A stretch of 64,000 nucleotides of DNA from Neoconidiobolus thromboides FSU 785 (Eukaryota > Entomophthoromycota > Entomophthoromycetes > Entomophthorales > Neoconidiobolaceae). This document shows positions 10,910-55,750 of the stretch, one piece after another. Within the stretch, counting starts at the first letter, position 1, and every line of letters begins with the position of its first letter. Location of the stretch: positions 62,001 through 126,000 of the forward strand of contig MU626268.1 of NCBI GenBank assembly GCA_025603075.1. Reading direction: 5' to 3'. The notes under the pieces are model-generated. The model saw nothing but the letters and a program-made list of their open reading frames with translations. It searched no databases and was not told where the DNA came from. Position numbers and translations under genes: made by a program.

Positions 10910-11009
10910 TGGGGATGTATTTTTGTATTTAAGAATTTTACTGACAATTTTTCCACATAAATAGTGCTTAAAAAATGAAAAAATAATGAAACTAAAAAAA
11001 ACAGCCCCA
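10910..11009 (+). mobile_element. MITE copy 4
   Basis: TGGGGATGTATTTTTGTAT at the left end and AACAGCCCCA at the right end, TA flanks on both sides, and central AAATAGTGCTTAAAAAATG. Confidence 0.9.
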
Positions 11010-13984: not shown

Positions 13985-14208
13985 TTAGCATATGGGGCTG
14001 TCCTAATTGGTTTTAAAATCTACTTAGAAATTAATCCAAATTTAAAATTTTAAGTTTGTGTCCAATATAACGGTTAAATCTAAAAAGCCTAAAATTAAAT
14101 GTCTCTATTTAAAACTTATTTTAATTGCTTCCTTTTCTTAAATAGCTAATCTTCCTAATTGTATAAATACAGTTATTTGACTTTATTTTTTGTTGAAATA
14201 AAAATAAA

Positions 14209-15897
14209 ATGCAAACTTTCATAACTAAACTTCGAAATGAAATTTTCAAAAATTTCAATACAATAGGGAGGAGTACACAATATAAACATTGTAATTCATT
14301 TACATCAATTTTAAGAGCTACTTATAACAACCCAAGGTTTATGGAATTTTACAATAAAACAAAACAAAGAAAAGATATGTTATCAAAGTCTACTATCGAT
14401 AATAATAAACTTAATCAAGTAATGTATAAAATTAGTGCTTTAAGGGAAACAGGAAACAAAAATCAGCAAGTAGCGTTATTATCAACTATAGCTTCAATAT
14501 ATTCTTTTGATGAATGTAAAAGTTTTGGGTTTAATATAAATAGAAATCAATATGATTATTCAAAAACAAGTAATAATAATAATATATCAACATTAAAACC
14601 TATTATTAAAAATACAAAAAAAATTAAAGATGAGCAAATTGAAACTACCATACAATATTTACTAAATGATTCAACTATTTCATCAAGCTTTAATAAAAAA
14701 AATAATGATAGTAAATATTCATCAGATAATATATATATATTAAATAAAAGTAGAAGAATGATATATAGTAAGTATTTGAATGATCTAAGAGATAAAGCAG
14801 TAGCTAGGTCAACGTTCTTTAAATATATACCAAGTAATTTCAAAAATCCAGCAAGAAAAACGGATCTATGTAATATATGTACCCAGTATACAGTTAGAAA
14901 AAAGTTATTCGAAAATAAAATAAATACAGCAAAAAACAAAGCAGAGATAGAAGAAATTTTCAACGAAGAAGAAAAACTATACAGATTACATAAATTCTGT
15001 GTTGATACTCAAAAAAACACATTTAATGAAACTATTAAAAAATTAAATAACAAAAGTTGTATAATAGTTTTAGATTTTAAACAAAATATGGAAATAGGAA
15101 CAAGACCAGATTCAATAAATCTAGATCATTATAATAAACAAGTTATATCAGTATTAGGCTTTGGTGTTTTGTATTTAAAAGATCATAAAACAATAGGCAA
15201 AGTTTACTTTGATTATTTATCTGAAATATTGAATCATGATTCAGCATATGCAGGNNNNNNNNNNNNNNNNNNNNNNNNNNNNNNNNNNNNNNNNNNNNNN
15301 NNNNNNNNNNNNNNNNNNNNNNNNNNNNNNNNNNNNNNNNNNNNNNNNNNNNNNNNNNNNNNNNNNNNNNNNNNNNNNNNNNNNNNNNNNNNNNNNNNNN
15401 NNNNNNNNNNNNNNNNNNNNNNNNNNNNNNNNNNNNNNNNNNNNNNNNNNNNNNNNNNNNNNNNNNNNNNNNNNNNNNNNNNNNNNNNNNNNNNNNNNNN
15501 NNNNNNNNNNNNNNNNNNNNNNNNNNNNNNNNNNNNNNNNNNNNNNNNNNNNNNNNNNNNNNNNNNNNNNNNNNNNNNNNNNNNNNNNNNNNNNNNNNNN
15601 NNNNNNNNNNNNNNNNNNNNNNNNNNNNNNNNNNNNNNNNNNNNNNNNNNNNNNNNNNNNNNNNNNNNNNNNNNNNNNNNNNNNNNNNNNNNNNNNNNNN
15701 NNNNNNNNNNNNNNNNNNNNNNNNNNNNNNNNNNNNNNNNNNNNGTTATAGAGTCTATAGAAAACAGAAAAATTAAAAGATCGATCCCAGCTTACCTTAC
15801 GAAGATAACAGAGAATTTAAAAATTTCGATATTTACTAAGCAAGTAAGCAGTTTGTTGAATGATAGAAATAGATTATTAAATGTTAAGATTACTTAA
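14209..15897 (+). CDS. Putative transposase (DFKQN motif), sequence gap inside
   Basis: The start ATG follows an A-rich leader, and 349 codons are open before the gap. Visible features, in order: an Asn/Ser/Lys-rich N-terminal half; RSTFFKYIPSNFKNP; DLCNICTQYTV with a CxxC pair and a later LHKFC that could complete a zinc site; and IIVLDFKQNMEIGTRP followed by NKQVISVLGFGVLYLKDHK. A hydrophobic strand ending in Asp with QN after it is what the first catalytic Asp of an RNase H-fold transposase looks like. I recall similar DFxQN/Q strings in uncharacterised transposase-like proteins of animals. After the Ns the ORF closes with SIPAYLTKITENLKI and SLLNDRNRLLNVKIT. The frame across the gap depends on the gap size being right. 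The remaining acidic residues would lie in the gap. Confidence 0.65.
   Translation: MQTFITKLRNEIFKNFNTIGRSTQYKHCNSFTSILRATYNNPRFMEFYNKTKQRKDMLSKSTIDNNKLNQVMYKISALRETGNKNQQVALLSTIASIYSFDECKSFGFNINRNQYDYSKTSNNNNISTLKPIIKNTKKIKDEQIETTIQYLLNDSTISSSFNKKNNDSKYSSDNIYILNKSRRMIYSKYLNDLRDKAVARSTFFKYIPSNFKNPARKTDLCNICTQYTVRKKLFENKINTAKNKAEIEEIFNEEEKLYRLHKFCVDTQKNTFNETIKKLNNKSCIIVLDFKQNMEIGTRPDSINLDHYNKQVISVLGFGVLYLKDHKTIGKVYFDYLSEILNHDSAYAXXXXXXXXXXXXXXXXXXXXXXXXXXXXXXXXXXXXXXXXXXXXXXXXXXXXXXXXXXXXXXXXXXXXXXXXXXXXXXXXXXXXXXXXXXXXXXXXXXXXXXXXXXXXXXXXXXXXXXXXXXXXXXXXXXXXXXXXXXXXXXXXXXXXXXXXXXXXXXXXXXXXVIESIENRKIKRSIPAYLTKITENLKISIFTKQVSSLLNDRNRLLNVKIT
15255..15744. other. Assembly gap of 490 Ns
   Basis: An unbroken run of N inside the putative transposase. 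The size may be an estimate. Multi-copy sequence is a common reason for such gaps. Confidence 0.99.
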
Positions 15898-15954
15898 GTT
15901 ATTAATAACTAAGTTAATAAATAGTCAAAGAACAAGTAACTGTAATAATATGTA

Positions 15955-16024
15955 AAAACTATTATTACTTGCACTATATAGGGATGGTTAATTATAGTTT
16001 TGGTGCTAACCACTCCCTCCCATG
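15955..16024 (+). other. Conserved hairpin in the transposon's 3' non-coding tail
   Basis: GGGATGGTTA at about 15982 can pair with TAACCACTCCC at about 16008. The second transposon copy has GGGATAGTTA and TAACTGCTACCTCCC at the same place (about 36790-36830, minus strand). The inner stem GGTTA/TAACC becomes AGTTA/TAACT, a compensatory change, so the pairing itself may matter. Its role is unknown; transcription end or transposase binding are guesses. Confidence 0.45.
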
Positions 16025-16611
16025 CAGCTATTTGTTAACTTGGCAATATATTAATAATGTAGTTATAACATTAAAATAGTTTATTTATTTGATAATAAAT
16101 CTAAAATGTTGGTTATAAAGCAGTTGATAATAAATATTTCTCAATTAAGCTTTATAAGAACATATATTTAAGATCTAGTAGAAATTCAACTAGCTTACAG
16201 TATAAACTATAATAGAATGATTTAGAACTGTTTCCGGGTACTTTTGTTTTAATAAAAGATATGATTTTATAGAATTTTAAGCGAAGTTTTTAAAATACAA
16301 AACTTTTCAAAAATTGGATAAAATAATGAAACTAATTCAGACAACCCCATATTAATTTCTACTTGTATCAAATCTAAGATCTTTACATCAAAAAAATATA
16401 TTAAAGCTATAGTTGATAATAACGCTACTTGTTGGTTTTTACTTCCTGTTTCCTTTAAAGAATTAATTTTGTATACTATTTAATTAAGTTTATTATTATC
16501 AATATTAAACTTTAATAGTTTTTATTATTATTATTATAAAATTCCATAAACTATAGGTTATTATAAATAGTTGTTAAAATTAATGTAAATAAATTATGTT
16601 TATATAGTATG

Positions 16612-16691
16612 CTTCTCCCTATTATATTAAAAATTTTAAAAACTTCAGATTAATTTTTAAATAAATTCTGAAACCAATTTGGACATCTCTA
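16612..16691 (-). mobile_element. End-fragment of the same transposon family
   Basis: On the minus strand it begins TAGAGATGTCCAAATTGGTT, then TTCAGAATTTATTTAAAAAT. This follows the left end of the transposon at 13993 (TGTCCTAATTGGTTT, then AATTAATC). It is bordered by TA at 16692-16693. No coding part remains. Confidence 0.55.
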
Positions 16692-32000: not shown

Positions 32001-32101
32001 TGGGGATGTATTTTTGTCTTTAAGAATTTTATTAATAAATTTTCCACTCAAATAGCGCTTAAAAAATGGAAAAAGTAATGAAGTCAAAAAAAACACTCCC
32101 A
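32001..32101 (+). mobile_element. MITE copy 7, just upstream of Mtr4
   Basis: TGGGGATGTATTTTTGTCTT at the left end, AAACACTCCCA at the right end, and TT flanks on both sides. Confidence 0.9.
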
Positions 32102-35911: not shown

Positions 35912-36009
35912 TGGGGTATCCGAATTCGTTTTATTTTTTTGTCTAATTTAAATATTTTAAATTTTAAAAACTTTGCTTAAAATCCTACAAAAATAAATTC
36001 TTTATTAAA

Positions 36010-36478
36010 GTGTGAAATCTGGTACTCAGTGGTTGGAGTCAAAAGCAGCTCCTGCTTGATTGACTACCCGTAAGTCGAAAGGTTTTATTAGCCTATATAA
36101 CTAAGATAGACTTGAACTGTAAAGAATAGTACGTAATATGCTACGGGCTATATAAGACAAATAGAATAGGCAATACTACTGTAAAATCTACGTAAAATAT
36201 TACCAGAAAGATTTACTGGCTTTATTAAAGGCAAAATATTAAGGAATAATTCAGTTAGAAAGCCCTAAGTTATTATGTTTTAAAATCTCTTTTATACCCC
36301 AACAAGTATGGATATCAAAATAGGGAGATGATGTTCTTCGGAATTACATGATAGAAATCATCATATCAAATCAAAATAAGAGCATGGGATTAATTGTTTG
36401 TGAGCTCGAGAACACAACAACTTAAGTGATTGTTATGTCATAATCAATCATAGAGCTCACAAAGCGATATTTCACAAA
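36010..36478. mobile_element. Unidentified 0.47-kb insertion inside transposon copy 2
   Basis: Comparison with the first copy shows extra sequence between TTTATTAAA and ACCAAAAGTACTTGG. Its ends are weakly inverted (TGTGAAAT on the left, ATTTCACA on the right). It contains a perfect 11-bp inverted repeat, TTTGTGAGCTC at 36397-36407 and its complement at 36453-36463. Near the left end TACTCAGTGGTTGGAGTC resembles a tRNA A box. Class unknown. Confidence 0.45.
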
Positions 36479-37238
36479 ACCAAAAGTACTTGGCTACTTT
36501 TAAACCATTTTATTACAATTTATATTATAAACTAGTGAAATTTTTATTGAATTTAATAGAGACTCCGCGATTGGAAAGGCTTTTACTAATATAACCCATA
36601 TATTAATATTAATCGAAGTTTTAATATATAAACAAGTAAATAAATATTTTTATAAAACTTTATTGAGAAATATTTATTACCAATTGCTTTATAGTCAAGA
36701 TCACAAGTTTGATATTGAACAAATAAATAATTTCAATGTTATGACTATATCATTAATATATTAATGAGTTAACAAACGGTTGTATGGGAGGTAGCAGTTA
36801 ACCCCAAAGCTATAACTATCCCTATATAATATAAGCAATTATATTGCTTATATTTATTATTATAGTCACTTACTCTTTAGCTATTTGTTAACTTATTTAT
36901 TAATAATTTAAGTAATATTAATAATTTAAGTAATATTAATATTTAACGATTGATTCCTATTATTCGATAAACTAATTACTTGCTTAACAAATATTTAAAC
37001 TTTTAAACTTTTTGCTATTTTTGTAAAACAAGATAAGGTTGGTTTTTTAATTTTTATACTTTCTATAAACTTTGTAACTTTAACTGAAACTATATCACTT
37101 TTTTTTAATCTATCAGATGGTGGATAATAATATAATTTATTATTATGTTTAATAAATATAAATACTTTTTAATATCTTATATTTTCATTACTCTTATTTT
37201 TTTTCCATACTTTTCAAAAATTACATTTATTTCTCCAT

Positions 37239-37339
37239 TGGGGATGTATTTTTGTGTTTAAGAATTTTATTAGCAATTTTTCCACTCAGGTAGTGCTTAA
37301 AAGATGGAAAAAGTAATGAAATAGAAAAAAACATCTCCA
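37239..37339 (+). mobile_element. MITE copy 10, nested in transposon copy 2
   Basis: TGGGGATGTATTTTTGTGTT at the left end and AACATCTCCA at the right end. Flanks are AT and TT, so the duplication has drifted. Confidence 0.88.
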
Positions 37340-37486
37340 TTGTTAACAATTGAATTAGTAATTCTATTATGTTTGTAAATAAAAATTAAGAAAATTGAAA
37401 TTAATTGATTAATACCTTTTGTTTTACCTAATGCTTCAAAACTATTTTTCTCTTATAAAAGATTTTTAAAATGTTTATCAACTATA

Positions 37487-37586
37487 TGAGGATGTTTTAT
37501 TTGGTTTCATCACTTTTTCCATTTTTTGAGCCCTGTTTGAGCGAAAAATTTATTAGCAAAATTCTTAAATAAAAAAATAATCTCAA
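37487..37586 (-). mobile_element. MITE copy 11, nested in transposon copy 2
   Basis: TGAGGATGTTTTATTTGG at the left end, then TTTCATCACTTTTTCC; the right end AATAATCTCA is worn. TA lies at each side. Confidence 0.82.
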
Positions 37587-38450
37587 TATTTTTTTCTATA
37601 ATGCTTAACAAAAAAATCAAAATCAAAATCTAAACTATTATTTATTTTATAAATTTCTTTAACTACATAATATAAAGGCTTTTGAAATTTAAAATGATTT
37701 CCTGTATTTGCTTATATATTAATCTTTATAAGTTTTCTAAATAAAAGCTTCTTAAATATTGAATTAATTAAACAGTTTCCTGCATATACCAAATTATGAG
37801 TTGATATTTCAAATAAATAATGAGAATGAATTTTGTTTATCATCATATTATTTTTTAAATATAAAACATCAAATCCTAATACTGATATAACTTGTTTGTC
37901 ACAATAGTTTAAATTTATTAGATCTAGCTTTGTTTCTATTTTTATGTTTTGTTTAAAGTTTGAAATTATTCTATAACTTTTATTATTTGATTTTTTGAAT
38001 AGGTTTACTAACTATATTTTTTCAAATATTAATATAAAATTCATATAATTTATACAACTTTTTTATTTGAAAACTCTTTTATCTTTGTTTTATTTTTTAT
38101 TGTTATATCTATCTTATTTTTAAATAGTTTTTTCTAACTGTATACTAGATGCATATATCACACAAATCTGCTTTTTTCGCTGGGTTTTTAAAATTGTCTA
38201 TTATATATTCAGAAGACGTTGACTTAGCTACTGCTTTACCTTTTGAATTATTAAAATATTTGTTATACACTATTTTTTCTACTCTTATTCGATATATATA
38301 TTATCTAATAAATATTTATTGTCATTTTGTTTTTATTAAATTTTAGTAAAATAGATGAATTATCAAGTAAATATTACAATATCACTGCATAATTTTTGTT
38401 TTTGTAACTATATTTTATAAAAATATAGCATATTTTTTTATAAATTCTAA

Positions 38451-39349: not shown

Positions 39350-39822
39350 TTAACCACATTCATTATGAACTATACATTGGCAACAATGATAAGCAGTCAT
39401 AGGATTCCTACTAGATAGATTAATCTGATTAAATAAATTACTATCGTCTAAAAGCATATACGGCGATTTATTTCCTTTGTAAAAAAGTGAAATTATAAAC
39501 GTAAGTAATGTCATAGTGATTATTATAAAGAAATCAATCAGGCCATACCACATAACATTGAACGTAGCAAGAGAAAGAAAGATATAAATCAAACTTCTTC
39601 CACGAGGAAACATATAAAATTTCAAGTGCTCAAGATGATGCAATTGTAAAATAGGTATTTCATATGCTAATACAAAATGTGATAGAATCTACCGTAAAAC
39701 AGATAATATTACTCCATGTCCATAATCCTAAAAATAGTACTTCATTTTAAATGCACTTACAAGTACCTCTAAACCAACAATAATATTGACGAAGGATGAA
39801 AAAATCTTAGTCTCTTAGACAT
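39350..39822 (-). pseudogene. Small membrane-protein family copy 1, broken
   Basis: Minus strand. It starts MSKRLRFF at 39822, shifts frame soon after (SSFVNIIVGLEVLVSAF), and has in-frame stops before DYGHGVILSVLR and just after it. It then stays open for 97 codons: LKFYMFPRGRSLIYIFLSLA, WYGLIDFFIIITMTLLTFII and SLFYKGNKSPYML. The family layout is as in the intact copy at 45187. Confidence 0.7.
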
Positions 39823-40646
39823 TGTAATCTAAATATAGAGTACAAAATATAAGATAAAAGGCTTCATAGCTGTATATAGTATTTCATTCAAATACATAAT
39901 TAACCTCAATTCAAATCAAAATAATTTTTTATAAACATCTCACATGTCGCAATACAGTATTATTAATATTATACCCTTTTATCTTTATTCATTTCACTCG
40001 TATGAGTAGATGATAGTATCTCTTCTAGTTATAACTAATGTTCTTATAATTAATTACACTTTAATTAAATCTATTCGTTACTTCTGTAAATAAAATATTC
40101 TGCTAATTTTGATTAAATGGAAAAGCTTAAACGTCTTTATTTAATTGTAGACTCGCATGCAAATAATACTAATATTTATCTTTTTTAATTAACGTATTAG
40201 CATAGATATGAAATTGACATAAATATTATTTCTATTTCAATCTTTCTGTTGAATTCTTAAATGACTTTAAAAATTATTTCTGCTCCTTCTGGTATTGGTT
40301 TCTTTTTCTACCATTGGTGGCTTTTTAACGTGATTTCAAACATCAGCATTAGTAGTATTTGATTAGAATAATATTACTTTATAAATAATTTTAAATGTTA
40401 AATTTAGAATTCCAAGAGCCGAAAATAATATATATATCCTTGTATAGTTCAATGGTGTTAGTCAAACTATTAACAACATGATGTTCCTCATAGATCTTGT
40501 TAAACTAAATACTCTTAATCATAATTTGAACATATAGTAGAAATTATCCAAGTTGAATCAAATAATTAGGTATTTTTTGAAAGCAAAAGGTATAGTAGAA
40601 TGTCACATAATCTCTAGATATTTTTTATTTACTAAATAAGAGTATT
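39823..40646. other. Array spacer with conserved upstream motif
   Basis: No gene. At about 40410 the sequence TTTAGAATTCCAAGAGCC belongs to a motif found about 0.3-0.6 kb upstream of each array gene. Confidence 0.4.
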
Positions 40647-40746
40647 TGGGAATATATTTTCTTGTTTAAGAATTTTACTAACAACCTTTCGGCTCAAATA
40701 GCGCTTAAAAAACGGAAAAGTAATGAAACCAAAAAAAACATCCCTA
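40647..40746 (+). mobile_element. MITE copy 12
   Basis: TGGGAATATATTTTCTTG at the left end, AACATCCCTA at the right end, and TT flanks on both sides. Confidence 0.88.
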
Positions 40747-41088
40747 TTTGTTATCAGATTAGTGCTTACTTATGTCAAAAACTTGTGTATCTCCTTTAAG
40801 ATCCTCTATATAAAGCTTTATCATAGTAAGTGACAAATACATGTATATTTATATTACTTTTATATCTTCAAAATGTATACTTTTGACATAAACTATTCGT
40901 TAGAGCATATTACATAATAAAGCCTATTGTAAAATTCAAAATTTATGACATGGGTTCAATTAATAAAGATTCTTAGCTATTTCGATATTAATTTAAAACA
41001 GCTAATATGGTATTTATTTCTAAATAAAATAGCCTTGAAAACGAGGTAGATGGCCATAAAGGTAGTCTCAAAAAAGGATGTCTATCTA

Positions 41089-41187
41089 TGAGGATGCTTT
41101 TTTTGGCTTCATTGCTTTTTCCATCTTTTAACTGCTACTTGAGTAGAAAAATTGTTGATAAAATTCTTAAATACAAAATACATCCCC
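41089..41187 (-). mobile_element. MITE copy 13, reverse orientation
   Basis: TGAGGATGCTTTTTTTGGC at the left end and AATACATCCCC at the right end; TA lies at each side. Confidence 0.88.
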
Positions 41188-42039
41188 TATGCTTTTATTA
41201 ACAGGGATACTCTATATAAATTTTTTTACAAAATAGGTGAAGATGCTTCCTTCTGCGATTTTCAACACAATCATCACGAATATTTTTATACATGCCATCA
41301 TCTATGAATTAATTACAGTGAGAAAAGAACAGGAATTTAGACTTTTTTTGTTTTGATAGAGTTAATCTAGGAAAAAGGACTTAACAACAGTTAAGAAGGC
41401 AAAAATACATACTGGTTCTTTAAAAAAGGGCACCAGGCATAACAGATGTATCAGATGTATTAAAAAAAGACTAACTAATTAAAACCCCATCAAAAAAAGA
41501 CATACATCATATAAAGTCCAAAACTGGAAGTAATTCAAAATAAATTATTACTGTGTAAATTAGATAGCTAATTTTGCAGAGACTTTGAAACATGTTATTT
41601 CAACGATTGGAAGCATAAACTTTGCAAAGAGCTCAAATAATATATTCTAATGTAGTAAGATCAAACTACTTTTAAAAAACGATCAAAGGGAATAGACTAA
41701 AGAGATAAAAAAGCGGCATAAAGCGGAATAATAACTTATTAAATCTTAACGAATTAAAGGATAAGTTAGATGAAAGAAAGGGATTCATATTTATACAAGG
41801 GTTGTCTCAAAAGGATTTGTAAGAACACAAGGCGGAAACGCTCCTTTTCCCAAAAATATTAAAGGTAGGAGAGGGGATCACCCAGAAATGAGAATTTCAT
41901 TTGGTTTTTATGTTCTCTATTTCATTTATTTAAAACAAAAAAAAACCAACTATATACATGACTGTTAAAATTATAGCTAATCTTCCCAATTAGTTAATCG
42001 GTTAAAAGCTAAAAAAATTTATGCACGTTTATATAACTT
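41188..42039. other. Non-coding array spacer
   Basis: No gene is supported in this 0.85 kb. Parts are less AT-rich and contain short duplicated phrases (CATACTGG, AAAAAAGACATAC) but no coding signal. Confidence 0.3.
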
Positions 42040-42505
42040 TGATACTTACTTCAATTGGATTTGACAAAGCATCATGACCAATGGAAGTAGTTTGATAGTA
42101 AGGAGGGGCAGATCCGAGCTAATTATCAGTAAGATAATCATCCTCAATTGGCATATATAGCGATTCATTTTCTTAATAAGAGTATGAGGTTGTAAATATA
42201 TTTACTGTAGCAATATCTGCTGTAGTGATATCAACAAAGTCATATCTAATTTCGTGGTTCAAAGAAATCGAAAGCAACCTATACTTTGAAATTCTTTGAG
42301 AAAAAGCATTCAGAACCCAAAATACTTTAAATGGTGTTAGTAATCTTACTTGGGCATAAATACAAAATGGTTTTAAGAATAAATAGAGTATATCCTAGAG
42401 TACTCATACAACTGCATCGATAAAGTTAGATATATTCAAGTATACTTATAACTAATGACCCATCAATAATAACTCTAGGAAGTGCTGAGAAAATTATTCA
42501 TCTTC
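42040..42505 (-). pseudogene. Small membrane-protein family copy 2, broken
   Basis: Minus-strand remnants in order: IFSALPRVIIDGSLVISIL (about 42495-42440), poorly preserved middle, then NESLYMPIEDDYLTDN, a stop, and LGSAPPYYQTTSIGHDAL with SNPIEV. The tail follows the intact copy's MPINENEPPNNSPGSALP closely. Several stops and indels are present. Confidence 0.6.
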
Positions 42506-43020
42506 TATTCTTTAGATATTACTTCAACATAAAAATTGTTTGTTTCACGTTATATACACTATTTTAAAGGCTAAGCATTAATCTTTATATCAATGTAGTT
42601 AAATTCAACAACCGTTTCATATAAATATATCCTTAATTTTATGATTGGGCATCATATACTTTACTTGGATCAGCTGTAGTTTTAATCAGTGTATATTTTA
42701 AAATATTTAAATATTTAATACAGCTCTTAAAATTTTATAGATTGCTTTTAACCTAGCTTTACTTTTACTTAGTTCAACCCATCGAAATTTTAATAGCTCC
42801 TAATCAACTATAATAACTAATATTGTTAAATGATTATATCAGCATTTTATAAAGACAATCAAAAACTTATTTACAGGTCAAAAATTAGGTTGATAGCCAT
42901 CCAAGTCGGATTTTGCTTGTGGTCTATTATTACGAATTGTTATAAGATTACTTGGAAATTATTCGAAAAGTAACTTTTCGTTAAAATTTAGAATCCTAAG
43001 AGCTGATAGTTATAAATAGA

Positions 43021-43119
43021 TGGGGATGTATTTTTGTATTTAAGAATTTTACTAATAGTTTTTCCACTCAAATAGCGCTTAAAAGATGGAAAAGTAATGA
43101 AGCCAAAAAAACATCCTCA
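43021..43119 (+). mobile_element. MITE copy 14
   Basis: TGGGGATGTATTTTTGTAT at the left end, AACATCCTCA at the right end, and GA flanks on both sides. It lies next to the conserved array upstream motif (TTTAGAATCCTAAGAGCT at about 42988). Confidence 0.92.
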
Positions 43120-43426
43120 GATGCTAATCTAAATAGTTACATAGTAGTAGTTTTGTCACTTTAATATAAATATTATCAATAAGCTATTGGGTCAAAAAAA
43201 TTGTCATGAAGATATTAATTAGTATATAATTTTATCTTAGATTTAAACATGTTTCTTTAAAAAATTCTGCAATTTTTCCTATCACTACAATTGAAGACTG
43301 TACAATAACAGACGCTAGCATAAACAGTAACTCATATCCTATGTTTTTAAATCATTGAAAGTTATTTAGCTTAATTTATACTTTTTAGTTTTTATTGAAA
43401 GCTGATTCTAATATATGGAAAAAATG

Positions 43427-43525
43427 TGGGGATGTATTTTTGTGTTTAAGAATTTTACTAACAGATTTTCCACTCAAATAGCACTTAAAAATGGAAAAAA
43501 TAATGAAGTCAAAAAAACACTCTCA
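43427..43525 (+). mobile_element. MITE copy 15
   Basis: TGGGGATGTATTTTTGTGTT at the left end, AACACTCTCA at the right end, and TG flanks on both sides. Confidence 0.92.
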
Positions 43526-43683
43526 TGTAATCTTTATTTAAAAAATATGCTTTACAGGTTTGACTATTTTATCTCCTTATGAAAAAATATGTATACTTGA
43601 ATAATAAAATGAAAGGTTTTGTTTAAATAGTCTCATATAATTTTAGCAATTGATTAAATGATAATATAAGGAAAAATGTCTAC

Positions 43684-43935
43684 GTTAAACTTCTTTCAGG
43701 AGGAAACATATAAAATCTGAAATATTTAAGATAGAATTGGTTGATTGCTGGTATTTCAGACAAAAATACAAAACGAGCTGAAAATAGCGTAAAATGGGAG
43801 GTAGAATACCATGTCCAGGATAACTGTGTCCTTAGTAATAATAATATCATGTTTTATATACGTTCATAGCTAATGTTGTACTAATGATAACATTAGAGAG
43901 TGATGAAAAAATTGTTAATGCTTCAAACACTTTAA
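43684..43935 (-). pseudogene. Small membrane-protein family copy 3, truncated
   Basis: Minus strand: TIFSSLSNVIISTTLAMNVY, stops, then PGHGILPPILRYFQ, and in another frame the FYLKYFRFYMFPP-like part. It ends at the GRSL position; the C-terminal half is missing. Confidence 0.55.
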
Positions 43936-44958
43936 GTTTAATACTTAAAAGATGAAATTTCTTTTGTAGCTATTTATAATATTTTTAGTAACTATTTGAT
44001 TAATAGCAGCTTAATGTTAAAATAAAGATTTCATCATCTTACTTCACATAGCACAGCCCTTTTTAGGGATATAGGTAATTTTATTTTGTTGTATTCATAT
44101 TAAATCATTGATTTCCTTTTTAAATGTATCCATTATAACTAACAACTATTTATTTGAAAAGAACTTTTATGAATGTAGAAAAAAAACTATTCATTTATTT
44201 ATATACAATGACATTTAATAGTTTTAATGAAATTTAAATGCATTTGGCCCTCTCTATAAATGGTGATAGTGTTTTTCTCTTGTAAATACTGCATTTTGTA
44301 TATATTCACTAATGACCCCAGTCCAATAATATCTTTTTGCGGTTTTATGATGATCCCAAATGAAATAATATTTTGTATTTAAAGTTTTTTGAAGTTCGTT
44401 GCTTAAGTCTCAGATAATTTTAAATAGATTTATAATTTTCGATCCAGAATGCCAAGGACCACAAAAATAAACACGGTTAATTCAGCAATATAAGGGATGT
44501 TGACCAGAGTATTTATAATCTGAAAAACTTTAAAAACTTAGTATGAATAAAAAACTTTATAATATACCTTATAAAATAATTTCATTTGAAAATACTTACT
44601 ACTATTGTACTTGCGAAAGCAAAATAAAGAGTGAAATATAAAATACTAAAAGGAGATATAAGGGCAGGAAAAATAGAACATAAGTCGAATAAGTAACAGA
44701 AAGTAGTGTTAATTTATGATATCCTGGTTTCGAGATAGATAGGCTATATAAAACGTTTTTAAATTAGCTTAGTACAAGTCAACAGATACACAAGAACAAG
44801 TAGTAAAAGGTAACAAGAAGCCAAAGGTGCTATTAATAGTAACTTAAAACTATAAAGTTGGTAGAAATTTATTTAAACATCATTTTAAATAATTTATAGA
44901 TCATTTATGGTTTTAAATATATATCACCTGATAATATCTGCCATCAAATTTTAACTTG
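43936..44958. other. Array spacer related to the next spacer
   Basis: No gene. It carries the upstream motif (CCAGAATGCCAAGGACC at about 44450). The stretch at about 44728-44830 (ATATCCTGGTTTCGAGAT, then TTAGCTTAGTACAAGTCAAC) parallels about 46530-46620 (ATACCTGGTATCAAGAGG, then TTAGCTTTGTTCAAGTTAAC). The spacers were therefore duplicated together with the genes. Confidence 0.5.
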
Positions 44959-45072
44959 TAGGGATTTGGAAGGTTTAAATGGATTTTGTGCTTAATAATT
45001 TTACTAATAATTTTTCCGCTCAAATAGTGCTTAAAGGATAGAAAAAGTAATGAAGCTATAAAAATACCCCCA
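44959..45072 (+). mobile_element. MITE copy 16, with small insertion near the left end
   Basis: The left end TAGGGAT is followed by about 14 extra bases, then TGGATTTTGTGCTTAATAAT. The right end is AATACCCCCA followed by TA. It lies about 115 bp past the stop codon of array copy 4. Confidence 0.75.
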
Positions 45073-45186
45073 TATGTTAAATTGTAATATGTATTTATAA
45101 TTATGCAAAAATTTGTATCACAACTTTTAAAAATAAAATTGGTAGATAAAAGAACTACGATATACAAATAACAATCTTTATTTAAA

Positions 45187-45684
45187 TTAAGTTGATACAA
45201 CCTTGATACATGCTTCGGTTGGATTTGATGGATTCCCGTCATCAGTAGAGAAGGTTTGATACGAAGGAAGAGCAGACCCAGGACTATTATTAGGTGGTTC
45301 ATTTTCATTTATAGGCATATATGGCGATTCCTCCCCTTTATGATATAATGATATTATAAAAGTAATCACTGTAATGATGCCCAGTACAATGATATTGACA
45401 ATACCATACCATATAAGACTAAATGATGAAATAGAAAGGAATGCATACATTAAACTTCTTCCAAGTGGGAACATATAGAATCTAAAATGTTTAAGATAGA
45501 ATGGTTTTATAAGGGGTATTTCAGATACCAACACGAAGTGAGCCAAAAAATAACGTAAGATGGATAGTACAATACCATGTCCATAGTCATAATAGTATTG
45601 ACGAGTTTCAAAGACACTTATAACTAGTACTATACCAATAATAATGTTTGCCAATGTTGAGAAAATTCTTAATCTTTTAGACAT
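45187..45684 (-). CDS. Small membrane-protein family copy 4, intact, intronless
   Basis: 165 residues with four predicted membrane helices: FSTLANIIIGIVLVISVF; VLSILRYFLAHFVLVSEIPL; a third around FPLGRSLMYAFLSISSFS; and a fourth, IIVLGIITVITFIISLYHKG. The C-terminal tail is polar (NENEPPNNSPGSALPSYQ) and would face the cytosol. The motif FYMFPLGRSLMY resembles the GRGLFYIF motif of the COPI-associated/TVP15 family of Golgi membrane proteins; this is a resemblance from memory, and the length is similar. No introns, whereas the paralogue at 60735 has three. A 288-bp block is 286/288 identical to copy 5. Confidence 0.7.
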   Translation of the reverse strand: MSKRLRIFSTLANIIIGIVLVISVFETRQYYYDYGHGIVLSILRYFLAHFVLVSEIPLIKPFYLKHFRFYMFPLGRSLMYAFLSISSFSLIWYGIVNIIVLGIITVITFIISLYHKGEESPYMPINENEPPNNSPGSALPSYQTFSTDDGNPSNPTEACIKVVST

Positions 45685-46933
45685 TGAAGTTTAATATTGA
45701 TGTGTTTATTTTTTAAATAAAGTATTAAAATAATTATTTATCCTTTATGATTATTTATACCTTTTTTTGGAACAATCTAATCAATGGCAACTTGATGTTA
45801 AATTGAAGGTTTGTACACTAATCTATATACGCAGCTTAATTAACATATAGTTAATTTCAAGTTTATATTTTACATGCACATTAAACCATCAATTTCCTTT
45901 TTAAATATATTCACCCGTGATTATAAATAGTGCTTATGTACAAAATTTATGAGTTCATTGTATATGATGTAGCTATTTCATTTATATAAAAGGAGATTGA
46001 AAAAAATTAATGAAATTACCTACGTTTAGTCCCCTTTATAATTGACAACCATATCCGCCTTTTGTAAGCCTTGTTTATGATATTATTCATTGATGGTTTT
46101 GATCTACTAAATTAATTTTTTAAGCTTCTAATATTTGGAGTTTATATAAGATGGCTATTTGTATTTAAAGCTTTCTTAAATGTTAATTAGAGTATTGTGA
46201 TAATGTTGGTTTTATAATTAGCTGTTTGAATGCCAAGAGTCATAAAAAATAAATAAGGATTAATTTGGTAATGTGCGGTATTAGCTTTGATGTTGGTAAT
46301 ATCAAAGTTCTTAATAAATTCATATCTGTAAAACTATTACAAGCTATTGAAAAGTATTTCTTCCAAAGAACTTTAATTATTTAGTCTCAGGCATCCTATC
46401 TATGTAAAAAATGAAGTGGAGTAGGATGTGTTTAAAAGGGGCCAAAACTGCAGTAAAGGTAAAAGACGAGTGGAATAATAGAAATCAGCTAACTGCAACA
46501 ATCTACAACGCCCTATTTTTGAACAAGATACCTGGTATCAAGAGGTTTTGAATTAGCTTTGTTCAAGTTAACGTAGACAAAAAGGAATGAATAAAAAACA
46601 ATAAAGGGATAAAAACGATATCTTTGAAAACTTGAAGGCACATAAATTAGGCTTAGATATATTATGAATGATTGTAAATAGTTTATAAAACATCATATAA
46701 TTATAGATCTATACTATGTCATTATCATTTATTGTTAAAGTCAAAAGGATTAACTATTTCATACCTTTACGCTACCGTGAGTGCTTTAGCTAGACTTTAA
46801 GTGTTTTACATATTCTAGAATGTAAAAATTTAATTTCTCATATATTTTGAAATTTAAAAAAAGCTTACATCGTAATATTCAAGAGTGACCTTGTAAAGAA
46901 ATTATAATACATAAATAGTAAAGTTTATTTAAA
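45685..46933. other. Array spacer between copies 4 and 5
   Basis: About 1.25 kb without a gene. It contains the upstream motif GAATGCCAAGAGTC at about 46227 and the duplicated spacer phrase at about 46530-46620. Confidence 0.4.
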
Positions 46934-47431
46934 TCAAGTTGACACGATTTTGACATCTATTTCGTTTGGAATCGCTAATGGATTGCCATCATTAGGTAAG
47001 GGCTGGTAACAGGGAAGAGCAGAGTTAAAATTACCATTAGATGGGTCATTGTCTTTTACAGGCATATATGGCGATTCCTCCCCTTTATGATATAATGATA
47101 TTATAAAAGTAATCACTGTAATGATGCCCAGTACAATGATATTGACAATACCGCACCATATAAGACTAAATGATGAAATAGAAAGGAATGCATACATTAA
47201 ACTTCTTCCAAGTGGGAACATATAGAATCTAAAATGTTTAAGATAGAATGGTTTTATAAGGGGTATTTCAGATACCAACACGAAGTGAGCCAAAAAATAA
47301 CGTAAGATGGATAGTACAATACCATGTCCATAGTCATAATAGTATTGGCCGGTTTCAGCTATACTAATAGCTAATACTACACCGACAAAGATGTTAGCAC
47401 ACGTTGAAAAAGTCCTTAATCCTTTTGACAT
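46934..47431 (-). CDS. Small membrane-protein family copy 5, intact, intronless
   Basis: 165 residues, same layout as copy 4. The N-terminal 30 residues differ (MSKGLRTFSTCANIFVGVVL against MSKRLRIFSTLANIIIGIVL), as does the tail (KDNDPSNGNFNSALPCYQ). The middle, from QYYYDYGHG to SPYMP, is the same except IWCGIVN in place of IWYGIVN. At the nucleotide level 47060-47347 matches 45313-45600 with two adjacent substitutions. The upstream motif TTGAATGCCAAGAG sits at about 47715, worn, as AATGCCAAGAGAT. Function is unknown; a Golgi or vesicle membrane role is inferred from family resemblance. Confidence 0.7.
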   Translation of the reverse strand: MSKGLRTFSTCANIFVGVVLAISIAETGQYYYDYGHGIVLSILRYFLAHFVLVSEIPLIKPFYLKHFRFYMFPLGRSLMYAFLSISSFSLIWCGIVNIIVLGIITVITFIISLYHKGEESPYMPVKDNDPSNGNFNSALPCYQPLPNDGNPLAIPNEIDVKIVST

Positions 47432-48198
47432 TTTAAGTTTGATACAAAAAATTGGTTTTTTATTTAATATATATACTATTTTATAATATTATTTAGCCAA
47501 TAATAATTAAACATTAAATCTTTGCCAAGGATTTGAATTTAAAAAGTCAGTAATTCCGAGTAGGGGTTAAAAAAAGTGAGTAATTCTTAACCTTTATGTG
47601 ATTCAATTTATTCGCTATTTTATTTGGATATTGTCACAAGCCTTTTGGTTCTATATCTTATGTTTTATTTCAATAGCCAGCATATCTCTGAACTTAACAT
47701 TCATTTCAATAATGCCAAGAGATATCTGGATTTATAACTGATATTCTTTAAATCCTATATAGTGTTACTAAATATCTTTTTTATTTCAGTAATTCATTTA
47801 CTTTTAGAAATTCTAAAATTGAAAAACATGAGAGTTCAATTTTTAAAACACATTCTTATGCTATTTTATACAACTATACAGTATTAGTTAACTCCTTGTT
47901 AGTTTCAAAAATCCTAAAAATTATTATAAACAAAATTTTAAATATAAAAAAGACTGGATAAGATTAAAATTTAATCTACATTTATGCAAATTTAATCAAT
48001 TTGTTGTGTAGTAATCCTACTATAGCTATATCTCTTGCTATATATCTACTACCAAAATTGAAATTATTTACATTTTATAACTTTAACTATCAAAAATCTT
48101 GAATTGCTTTGGTAATTTATTTTTTTAGAGTACATGTATGGCTTTAACATATCTAATGGATTAAACATAGTTAAAAATCTATTTTACAAGTTGAAATA

Positions 48199-48294
48199 TG
48201 GTGATGTATTTTTTTGTTTAAGAATTTACTAGCAAGTTTTTCCACCTAAATAGTGCTTAAAAGATAAAAAAGTAAACCAAAAAAAACACCCCCA
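48199..48294 (+). mobile_element. MITE copy 17
   Basis: TGGTGATGTATTTTTTTG at the left end, AACACCCCCA at the right end, and TA flanks on both sides; a few internal bases are deleted. Confidence 0.88.
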
Positions 48295-48372
48295 TATGTC
48301 TTCATACAAGAGCAAATTAAGTTAATGTCAAAATACTAAAATTTATTAAGTTGAGCTTGTGCGATTTGATGT

Positions 48373-48869
48373 TTAATTTGATATGATTTTGATATCTACT
48401 TCTTTTGCGATTGCCAGAATGTTTTTTTCATCAATCTTCACTTGATGATAAGGAAGAACAGGCTCTGGGCTGTTATTAGATATACCGTTCCCATTTATAG
48501 GCATATACGGTGATCCAGTTCCTTTATGACGTAATGCAATTATGAAGGTAATTACTGTAACGGTTCCTGTTATAATGATATTAATAACACCACATAGCAT
48601 AAGGTTAACGATGAGATAGAAAGGAACGTATACATCAAACTTCTTCCAATAGGAAACATAAAAAAGTTAAAACGATGAAGATAAAATTCCTTTAACAGAG
48701 GGATCTCTGACAAAAATAAAAATAGAGCTAGAAAGGAACGCAAAATTGATAGTACGATATCATGACCATAATCATAATTAGGTACCCTGGTTTCGGCTAT
48801 GCTTGTAGTTAATACAATATCAACGATGAGGTTAGCGATAGATGAGAAAATCCCAAAACTTTTAGACAT
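48373..48869 (-). pseudogene. Small membrane-protein family copy 6, one frameshift
   Basis: Two overlapping minus-strand frames. The first, from the ATG at 48869, reads MSKSFGIFSSIANLIVDIVL, then FFMFPIGRSLMYTFLSISSL. The second resumes near 48603 with MLCGVINIIITGTVTVITF, then GSPYMPINGNGISNNSPEP, ending at 48373. Everything else is intact, so one base lost or miscalled near 48600 explains the break. Confidence 0.75.
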
Positions 48870-50799
48870 TATGAATTACTTTATGAGACCGAAAACTTAC
48901 CTCATGGTTGACTATATATATAGTTTTATAAGAACCAATTAGCAAATATTACTTAATATTTGGCTTTTGCCAAGGGTTTAATCTTTTATAAATCAAGTAA
49001 TTAACTTTTCACACTAATGTACTTTAATGTATTATCATTACTATAACTATTAATTCTGCCCTAATCAGTTGAATATTATATAGTTTGGTTTAGTATTGAC
49101 ATAGCTCAAAGTTGATAGTTGCTTCATTAATATAAGAAGTATATGGACTTATAGTTAATGTGCATAATTTAAACTATACAAAATAATATTTAAAAATATT
49201 TAAAATAGTGTCTAGTTTGATCTATAAATACACTCAAATTTTAAGAGTAGCATTTTAATATTACAACATGATAATATATTTGATATATTAAATCAAGCCC
49301 GCTGAAAACATCATCTAGTATGTTAAAATGAATGTTTAAAGACTATATAATATGCTTATTTTAAAGTTGTGTTATATATAGTAAGGGATATTAAAGCAAT
49401 GCTTTTAAATATTAGAATCTAGTCAGAGTATACTGGATTATTTTTAGGTGTGATTATAAATGACTAGGCTTTAGAATAAAGAACAAATTTGGTAAATTTA
49501 TTATCAAATTAAGTGAAAAAACTTATAATCTTTGAAATTATAAAAGTAAATTTGCTAGAATAGGTTTTAATTGGCACTTTTTTAAAATAAAATTTATCCT
49601 TCTATTTTTTTAATATTTTTGTTTTATATTTTTATCCTATAATAAAATAGTTTATATGCATGTTAAATTTTTATGTATATAGTAAATATTTTTGAAGCAT
49701 TTGAATGTATCAAAATATAAATACAAGTTTTACCAGATCTCCTTGTTATTTAGTCTATCAATATTTTTAATTAGATATAATAAAAACCTAAAATTTAGCT
49801 AATACTTTTTTTATTTTTTTATTTTTTTTATATAACAGTTTAAAGTTAATATAAACAGCTGCTATATTAGATTTTACGTCATATGTTTATATAGTATTAT
49901 AACTGATACTACAACACTTTTAAACATAATATGGGCTTATTTCAAAACCAATAAAGTATGGTTACTCCCCTGGTCTATTAACTCCTCATCCCTATCATTC
50001 TTATAAGCTTGAGCCTTTTGTCTCTATTTTTTATTCTTTTACTTCTTAACATTATTAGTTAGATAAAATATTTGGGCTTTTAAGCTTTTAAGAATCTAAA
50101 AAATATCAAAAATGCTTCTTTCAGCTTCGTTTGAATTTTTATAAGGGCTATTTTTAGTTTTAGTAAAGTTGTCACTTTGAAATTCACTTTAAAATTCACT
50201 AAATTAATAATATATATCTTGGTAAATAAACCTTATATACAATAAGTGGGATTTACAATGTTTTAATTATTAAATAAATCAAGTGATGCCCATATAAAGT
50301 TTTTGAAATTACATAAAAGTTCAGTTTTAAATAATAATCTCACGCTTTGATTCAGCCCCCTTTTTAAACGTTATGTAAACAAAATTAAATTTCAATTAAA
50401 TACCAAAATTTTTTATTTAATAAAGAATCAGATGAGAGGATCTAAATATTACAGACAAACATTAAAGGATAGATAGGATAGAGATACAAGTAGCAATTAA
50501 ATAAAAACATTCTTTCGATACTAAAAATTAACAACTTTAACTTTTTTACTTTTCTTTTTTTACCTTAATAATTTACGTATCGATTCTATAAAATTAATTA
50601 TTAGTTACTATAAAAATAAAATAGAGAGTAATATTACTTAATAAATATTTCAAAATAGAATAAAATGGCAACATGAGTTGCGTTAACAATAAGCGATAAG
50701 AGTAGGGCCGATTCCTATATGTTTGTACAAAAATCAACCCCATTACTATGAGATGCACAGCGGATTTCTTTAAAACATTCTAAAAATTTATATTAATAA
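48870..50799. other. Non-coding stretch
   Basis: About 1.9 kb of AT-rich sequence. I see no coding signal, MITE or transposon end. Confidence 0.35.
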
Positions 50800-54281: not shown

Positions 54282-55750
54282 ATGATATCTCTTTTATTAT
54301 TTATAGTCATAATATTAATTAGTTTAATTTATCTTGGTAATAAACTATTAAATGAAGCTGCTTTTTCACCATGGTACTATCGATATTTTAATCTATGGAA
54401 ACCAAAATACCCTATTCATGGTCAATGTGAAGAGGAGTATAAGGAAGTTAAAGAAGTATTTAGAAACAGTTTTGAACGTGGTATAGAAGTTGGTGCTTCC
54501 GTAGCAGTTTATAACAAAGGAAAACTAGTGGTAGAACTTTATGGCGGTTATCAAGATTATGAAAATAAGGAATTATTTAATGAAACTACATTAACGATAG
54601 TATTTTCAAGTTCTAAATTTATGGTAAGACTTTTTAACTTTAATAGTGGTTTTTATATAATGAATTTGAATTAATGTTATTGAATTAGGCCAGTGCTGTT
54701 ATTGCTAAATTAGTAGATCAAGGGTTACTTGCTTATAATGAAAAAATATGTACATATTGGCCGGAATTTAGTAACGGTGGTAAAGAAGAAGTAACCTTAA
54801 CCGATTTATTACGTCATGAAGGTGGATTACCATATTTATTAGATCCAGAGCCAGCATATGAAGATGTTTATGATAGTAAAAGAATGAAAAAAATTATTGA
54901 AAATACGACACATGTTTATAATGGAAAAAGAGTACGTTGTTATCATGGAATAACCCGAGGATTAATTTTAAATGAACTTGTTAAATTAGTCGATAAAAAA
55001 GGACGTAGCATTGGACAATTATTTAAAGAAGAGATTAATCCAAAGTATAATATAGAATTTTATTTAGGTTTAGAAAAAGAATATGAAAACCGTAAAGCTA
55101 AATGGTATAATTATCCTACATTAGATGCTTTGACTTTGTTTTTACCTAAGTGGTTAATTGGTAGAAAAGCAGTTAGATTAAATAGAGATACTTTAAAAAG
55201 AGATTCTAATTTAATGAAACTGATGAAATTAAAACTATCTAATGAAAAGGATCTTCCAAATGCTAAAGATATGCTTACAATTGAAATCCCAAGTGTTAAT
55301 GGTCATACTAATGCAAAATCAGTAAGTTGATTTTTAATGCTACATTAGTTTTTTACTGACTAAATCGAATTTTATTAGTTAGCTAAAATAGGTAGCTATT
55401 TTGCAAACAATGGCAGTGTCAATTGTAAAACTTATTTAAGTGAATACACAACTACAGAATCAATAGGTGAAGTAGTTGAAGCATATGATGAAGCTATCTT
55501 ATTAAAGACTGAAATGACTAAAGGCGGCTTTGGAATATTTAAATATAAAGAACTTGAAGAATATTCCAATGTATCCTTTTATGGTTGGGGTGGTATGGGC
55601 GGTAGTTTGATTTTATTTTCTCCAGAATATCAATTCTCATTTGCCTATGTTATGAATGCTCAACATTTAGTTTTGATGAGTGAAGGTAGAGCAGTGGATT
55701 TATTAGTTACTGCTTTTAAAGCTCATGTAAAGACATTAACTAAGAATTAA
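54282..55750 (+). CDS. Membrane-anchored beta-lactamase-fold serine hydrolase
   Basis: Exons 54282-54623, 54689-55321 and 55379-55750 give 448 residues of the beta-lactamase/class C (EstB, LACTB-like) family. Residues 1-19 are a membrane anchor or uncleaved signal (MISLLLFIVIILISLIYLG). The catalytic SxxK is SSSK at about residues 110-113, after TLTIVF. The second motif, usually YxN, appears as CYHGITRG. The late glycine-rich motif is FYGWGGMGGS, where H/KTG is usual. TDLLRHEGGLPYLL is the family's LLxHTSGLP motif with Glu for Ser. Such fungal enzymes hydrolyse esters, amides or lactams, and the substrate cannot be read from sequence. The start is the first ATG after a TATAAAAA stretch at 54239. 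Confidence 0.8.

Follow-up and report, generated by a model that had tools for sequence, protein, structure and literature searches.

A 2.4-kb DNA transposon with Sola2-like features and related MITEs in Neoconidiobolus thromboides

A 64,000-nucleotide stretch of genomic DNA from the fungus Neoconidiobolus thromboides FSU 785 (GenBank assembly GCA_025603075.1, contig MU626268.1, positions 62,001 to 126,000; hereafter the window) contains at 13994-16348 a transposable element that starts with GGGG, ends with CCCC and has a perfect ATAT on either side. The element spans 2,355 bp, with the run of Ns in the assembly counted as given. It is a genuine copy of a DNA transposon; many related pieces are found in the genome, and miniature inverted-repeat transposable elements (MITEs) have produced target duplications at sites that are uninterrupted elsewhere. 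On balance, this 2.4-kb element probably moves by a Sola2-type cut-and-paste mechanism, through a predicted transposase with three catalytic aspartates (DDD). Its parts are as follows (window positions).

13990-13993, no strand: left target-site duplication ATAT, the same 4 bp as at 16349-16352
13994-14013, plus strand: left inverted end GGGGCTGTCCTAATTGGTTT, 16 of 20 bases pairing with the right end; its start is identical in other copies
14209-15897, plus strand: lone open reading frame (ORF) for the predicted DDD transposase; the CxxC is C221/C224, and D289 lies within VLDFKQN
15255-15744, no strand: assembly gap of 490 N, concealing the predicted second and third catalytic aspartates
15898-16328, plus strand: noncoding 3' tail, kept in other copies
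16329-16348, minus strand: right inverted end, GGGGTTGTCTGAATTAGTTT in minus-strand reading, 16 of 20 terminal bases matched
16349-16352, no strand: right target-site duplication ATAT

The borders follow the convention of the longest duplication, which sets the ends at GGGG and CCCC and makes TA the middle of ATAT. The original prediction, made from the sequence alone, had placed the ends at TGGGG; the matched inverted ends that it described stand (16 of the first 20 bases), but under this convention the ends lie one base further inside. The TA that it saw at both borders is there, as the middle of the ATAT at 13990-13993 and 16349-16352. The end pattern recurs above chance in the 23.1-Mb genome, with 129 + 137 = 266 matches at up to two mismatches versus 0 + 1 in the reversed control. 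ATAT precedes 50 of 66 distinct ends of the large element in the loci examined, 30 of these loci having been selected by a pattern that requires TAT; the outer A, which lies outside that pattern, is found at 62 of the 66.

Protein-level searches of the genome gave 132 matching pieces with an N-terminal query (116 of 337 candidates scored) and 166 with a core query taken from another copy (135 of 331 scored), several pieces being possible from one copy. The genome search that had been proposed recovered over a hundred pieces of the transposon, nearly all of them decayed; among the N-terminal-query matches listed, the window copy alone is free of stops across residues 1-348. Over long stretches, the DNA of other copies mostly shares 89-94% identity with the window element.

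The choice of target is best read from MITEs of about 98 bp, with ends GGGGNTGT...ACANCCCC, that are nested inside copies of the element, so that the insert-free site can be read in other copies. Junctions were unreadable in four of 37 candidate nested insertions; among the remaining 33, 24 have an identical 4-bp duplication, at 18 different sites (nested insertions sharing one site may descend from one event), where base composition predicts identity for about 1% of random 4-mer pairs. These duplications comprise 18 ATAT, three AAAT, two ATTT and one ATTA; 23 of the 24 fit AWWT (W being A or T). The variable 2-bp duplications previously attributed to the MITEs are really the middles of 4-bp duplications, mostly AWWT; the conclusion against Tc1/mariner stands. 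With up to three mismatches allowed, one end pattern of the MITEs occurs 1,486 times in the genome (control, 0), which suggests a total of about 1,500 MITEs. MITE sequence also lengthens the open reading frame in several element copies. Examples of this MITE family in the window include the following.

10911-11008, no strand: 98-bp MITE with ATAT on either side
43022-43118, no strand: MITE copy with AGAT on either side
32002-32099 and 48200-48293: further MITEs

The single ORF with CxxC and VLDFKQN motifs reported earlier was found as described, broken only by the 490-base gap. The stretch hidden by the gap measures 502-505 bp in five MITE-free copies (L006, L051, L053, L054 and L057), so the run of Ns probably falls about 12-15 bases short of the true length. 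The protein region that it hides is supplied by other copies and includes WADTGNHFRS and HGKSIVDGHFG; the predicted protein is about 565 residues long.

Two initial protein searches returned N. thromboides proteins only and no named relative elsewhere; in the first, the N gap had left the query without the core, and the second scored only the 7,990 candidates with most shared words. A search with the core returned 20 hits, of which one is from N. thromboides and the other 19 are unnamed proteins from outside it (E 6.7e-47 to 6.9e-15, 28-45% identity). The boxes DFK[QE]N, WxDxGxHF and HGKSxVDGHFG are all kept in the resulting alignment (A2). The three aspartates are conserved in 25/26, 25/25 and 23/23 covering rows, the exception being one decayed copy; H268 is conserved in 24/24 and the CxxC cysteines in 19/21 and 18/21. 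A 25-row core tree, with good support for just 6 of its 22 inner branches, places N. thromboides on a single branch (support 100/100), with several deep groups alongside.

The AlphaFold model made for one relative shows an RNase H-like core in which the predicted D-D-D triad is conserved; conservation and the positions of the aspartates in the model together point to a DDD transposase. The nearest solved folds to the model are retroviral integrases and the Mos1 transposase, and the 50 VIA matches listed consist of integrases and mariner-type transposases only. Among viral models, the best structural match is BFVD A0A2H4UVU9 from Bodo saltans virus (E 2.1e-4), whose label "DEXDc helicase" may be wrong.

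Sola elements are described as DDD transposons with 4-bp duplications and sizes mostly of 2-9 kb (PMC10741241), and Sola2 elements as having AWWT duplications (ATAT, AAAT, ATTT) and 12-21-bp ends (PMC3627910). The element described here shares with Sola2 AT-rich 4-bp AWWT duplications, short inverted ends, a predicted DDD transposase and a size inside the 2-9 kb range, and it is the agreement of the first three with the published profile that suggests a Sola2-like transposon. The superfamily had been called uncertain and the lineage poorly described; the second description stands, and the uncertainty is narrowed toward Sola2 by the same features. Sola2 has been reported in Dictyostelium fasciculatum and Polysphondylium pallidum (PMC3627910), and Sola-2 in Rhizophagus irregularis (PMC11075540). 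In contrast to Sola2, no Fanzor gene was seen in the single-ORF element.

Several observations weigh against this assignment. The likeness to Sola2 is one of published features, not of compared transposase sequences, and the transposase of about 565 residues differs from the 888 residues given for D. fasciculatum. The structural model was made from a relative, its third-aspartate block has a predicted local distance difference test (pLDDT) score of 69, and Foldseek template-modelling (TM) scores are low (0.18-0.30 across four Mos1 matches). Nine of the 33 readable nested MITE insertions are without an identical 4-bp duplication. An automatic scan of the window found 20 MITE-like stretches with identical 4-mers in four, including AGAT and ATGT, a low proportion that arises partly because many of the boundaries are off by one base. 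At AWWT sites, GGGG ends with a 4-bp duplication write the same string as TGGGG ends with a 2-bp duplication, and ATTA is the sole site that clearly favours 4 bp. For the large element itself, flanks are identical in 4 of 13 pairings of left and right ends, the window copy included, some of these pairings being doubtful; none of the 16 sites checked shows a convincing excision footprint.

If the element is Sola2-like, the enzyme may bind the GGGG ends, with its helical N-terminal part and the CxxC...H motif as possible contacts. The predicted catalytic triad would consist of D289 (in DFKQN) followed by the aspartates of WADTG and HGKSIVDGHFG, in that order. The element would be cut out and joined to an AWWT target with cuts 4 bases apart, and repair of the 4-base stagger would leave the duplication. 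As ends and target are held in common, the MITEs may be moved in trans by the same enzyme.

A separate, unnamed DDD superfamily, marked by DFK[QE]N, WxDxGxHF and HGKSxVDGHFG and resembling Sola2 in its AWWT target by convergence, is a possible but clearly less probable alternative. It draws on the lack of a usable sequence match in Pfam, NCBIfam or PDB, on the 19 outside relatives and the several deep groups of the tree, and on the Repbase rule that superfamilies are defined by transposase sequence, through convergence in iterated searches, and not by duplications alone (PMC4455052). Against it, the combination of a DDD enzyme, 4-bp AWWT duplications and short ends already bears the name Sola2, and Pfam may simply be without a Sola model. 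Put tentatively, and in terms of this alternative, a deep-branching DDD superfamily with members in other organisms might have put about 1,500 AWWT-site MITEs into an early-diverging fungus.

It is unlikely that the 98-bp MITEs are driven by a different autonomous element, in which case the AWWT duplications would be uninformative about this transposase. The inner bases of the ends differ, with poly-T following GGGGNTGT in the MITEs, and MITE end 1 matches the left end of the element in just 28 of 42 columns; on the other side, 32 of 41 columns agree between MITE end 2 and the right end, the large element itself has the ATAT and outer A counted above, and genome searches with two divergent relatives led only to places of the N. 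thromboides lineage.

A far Tc1/mariner (IS630) offshoot that has lost its strict TA target is very improbable. The third catalytic acid of mariner is D, as predicted here; the RNase H-like core is comparable in layout to that of Mos1, and TA lies in the middle of most targets. However, the duplication is a 4-bp AWWT rather than a strict TA, there is no sequence match, and retroviral integrases match the model at least as well as Mos1 does. The identical 4-bp duplications in 24 of 33 nested insertions argue against Tc1/mariner; six of the 24 are without TA in the middle, AA or TT standing there instead (AAAT three, ATTT two and ATTA one), while Tc1/mariner elements are described as always duplicating TA (PMC10741241). 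No integrase or Tc1/mariner Pfam family was among the hits listed for 12 proteins, although a relation to the Gypsy-type integrase of Ginger elements could be too distant for hmmscan to show. The third catalytic acid of retroviral integrases is E, and in this respect the predicted D sets the enzyme apart from retroviral integrases and Ginger.

The ends (GGGG...CCCC) and the 4-bp AWWT duplications bear out the earlier statement that the element does not fit CACTA, hAT, piggyBac, P or Tc1/mariner. CACTA/EnSpm elements are recognised by CACTA-type ends and are ruled out by the ends found here. The duplications of hAT and P elements fall in a 7-12-bp class; these and MuDR, for which 7-12 bp is reported (PMC10741241), are ruled out by duplications of 4 bp. 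TTAA, the duplication of piggyBac and Kolobok (PMC9587614), occurs in none of the 24 identical duplications.

Family searches are in keeping with a poorly described lineage. There was no usable family for the element proteins among the Pfam families listed (25 of 29 in one of the scans), no NCBIfam match for the one protein tried and no usable match in PDB sequence searches, where a match at E 0.18 was discarded. Relative P0022, whose combined genome matches cover residues 11 to 541, matched an intein splicing model at E 3.2e-4 but only 21 bits, below the cut-off of 35.8, and the match was discarded; hits to this model with E no higher than 1 came from two of the 26 members. Viral and prokaryote collections yielded no confirmed relative of the transposase. 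Two sequence patterns gave no matches in viral proteins; one of them, the HGKG pattern, is modelled on animal transposon proteins.

Two further pieces of the family lie in the window.

35912-38375, minus strand: second copy, decayed, with the left part absent and further insertions inside
16355-16691, minus strand: older inverted 5' piece (element bases ~7-59 and 251-555) abutting the right duplication

The second copy had been taken to confirm the ends, ORF and 3' tail; it retains the right end and the tail, whereas the left end is missing because the match begins only at element base 662, and both ends are backed by other genome copies rather than by this one. Had the element inserted into an older copy, a continuation of the inverted 5' piece would be expected left of 13990; none was found there. 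A 468-bp insert with ends TGTGAAAT...ATTTCACA lies inside element copies L008, L015 and L056, with 5-bp duplications AACAG, ATTGT and AATAG, and probably also at about 36011-36477 in the window; it is either a solo long terminal repeat or another transposon.

Elsewhere in the window, a frame at 54692-55330 (plus strand) matches the Beta-lactamase family PF00144 (E 2.4e-20), a broad family of serine hydrolases. Several similar membrane-protein-like ORFs, judged by eye, form a row at 39350-48875 (minus strand), within which the ORF at 46937-47488 (minus strand) has a COPI_assoc match below threshold (23.7 bits; cut-off 30). Scanning the window for Rfam families and tRNAs gave no hits.

Repeats are reported to make up 13.5% of the N. 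thromboides genome, and a class "Unknown" is listed in all five genomes of that survey, the available text of which does not mention Sola (PMC10515909). The papers listed by literature searches included none that described Sola-type elements or MITEs in this genus. The element and its MITEs may form part of the survey's "Unknown" repeats (PMC10515909). Alignment A2 can serve directly as a profile for a group of transposases without a usable Pfam match, and in the nested MITEs nature has left a clean record of target choice, through which the Sola2-like profile would reach Entomophthoromycotina.
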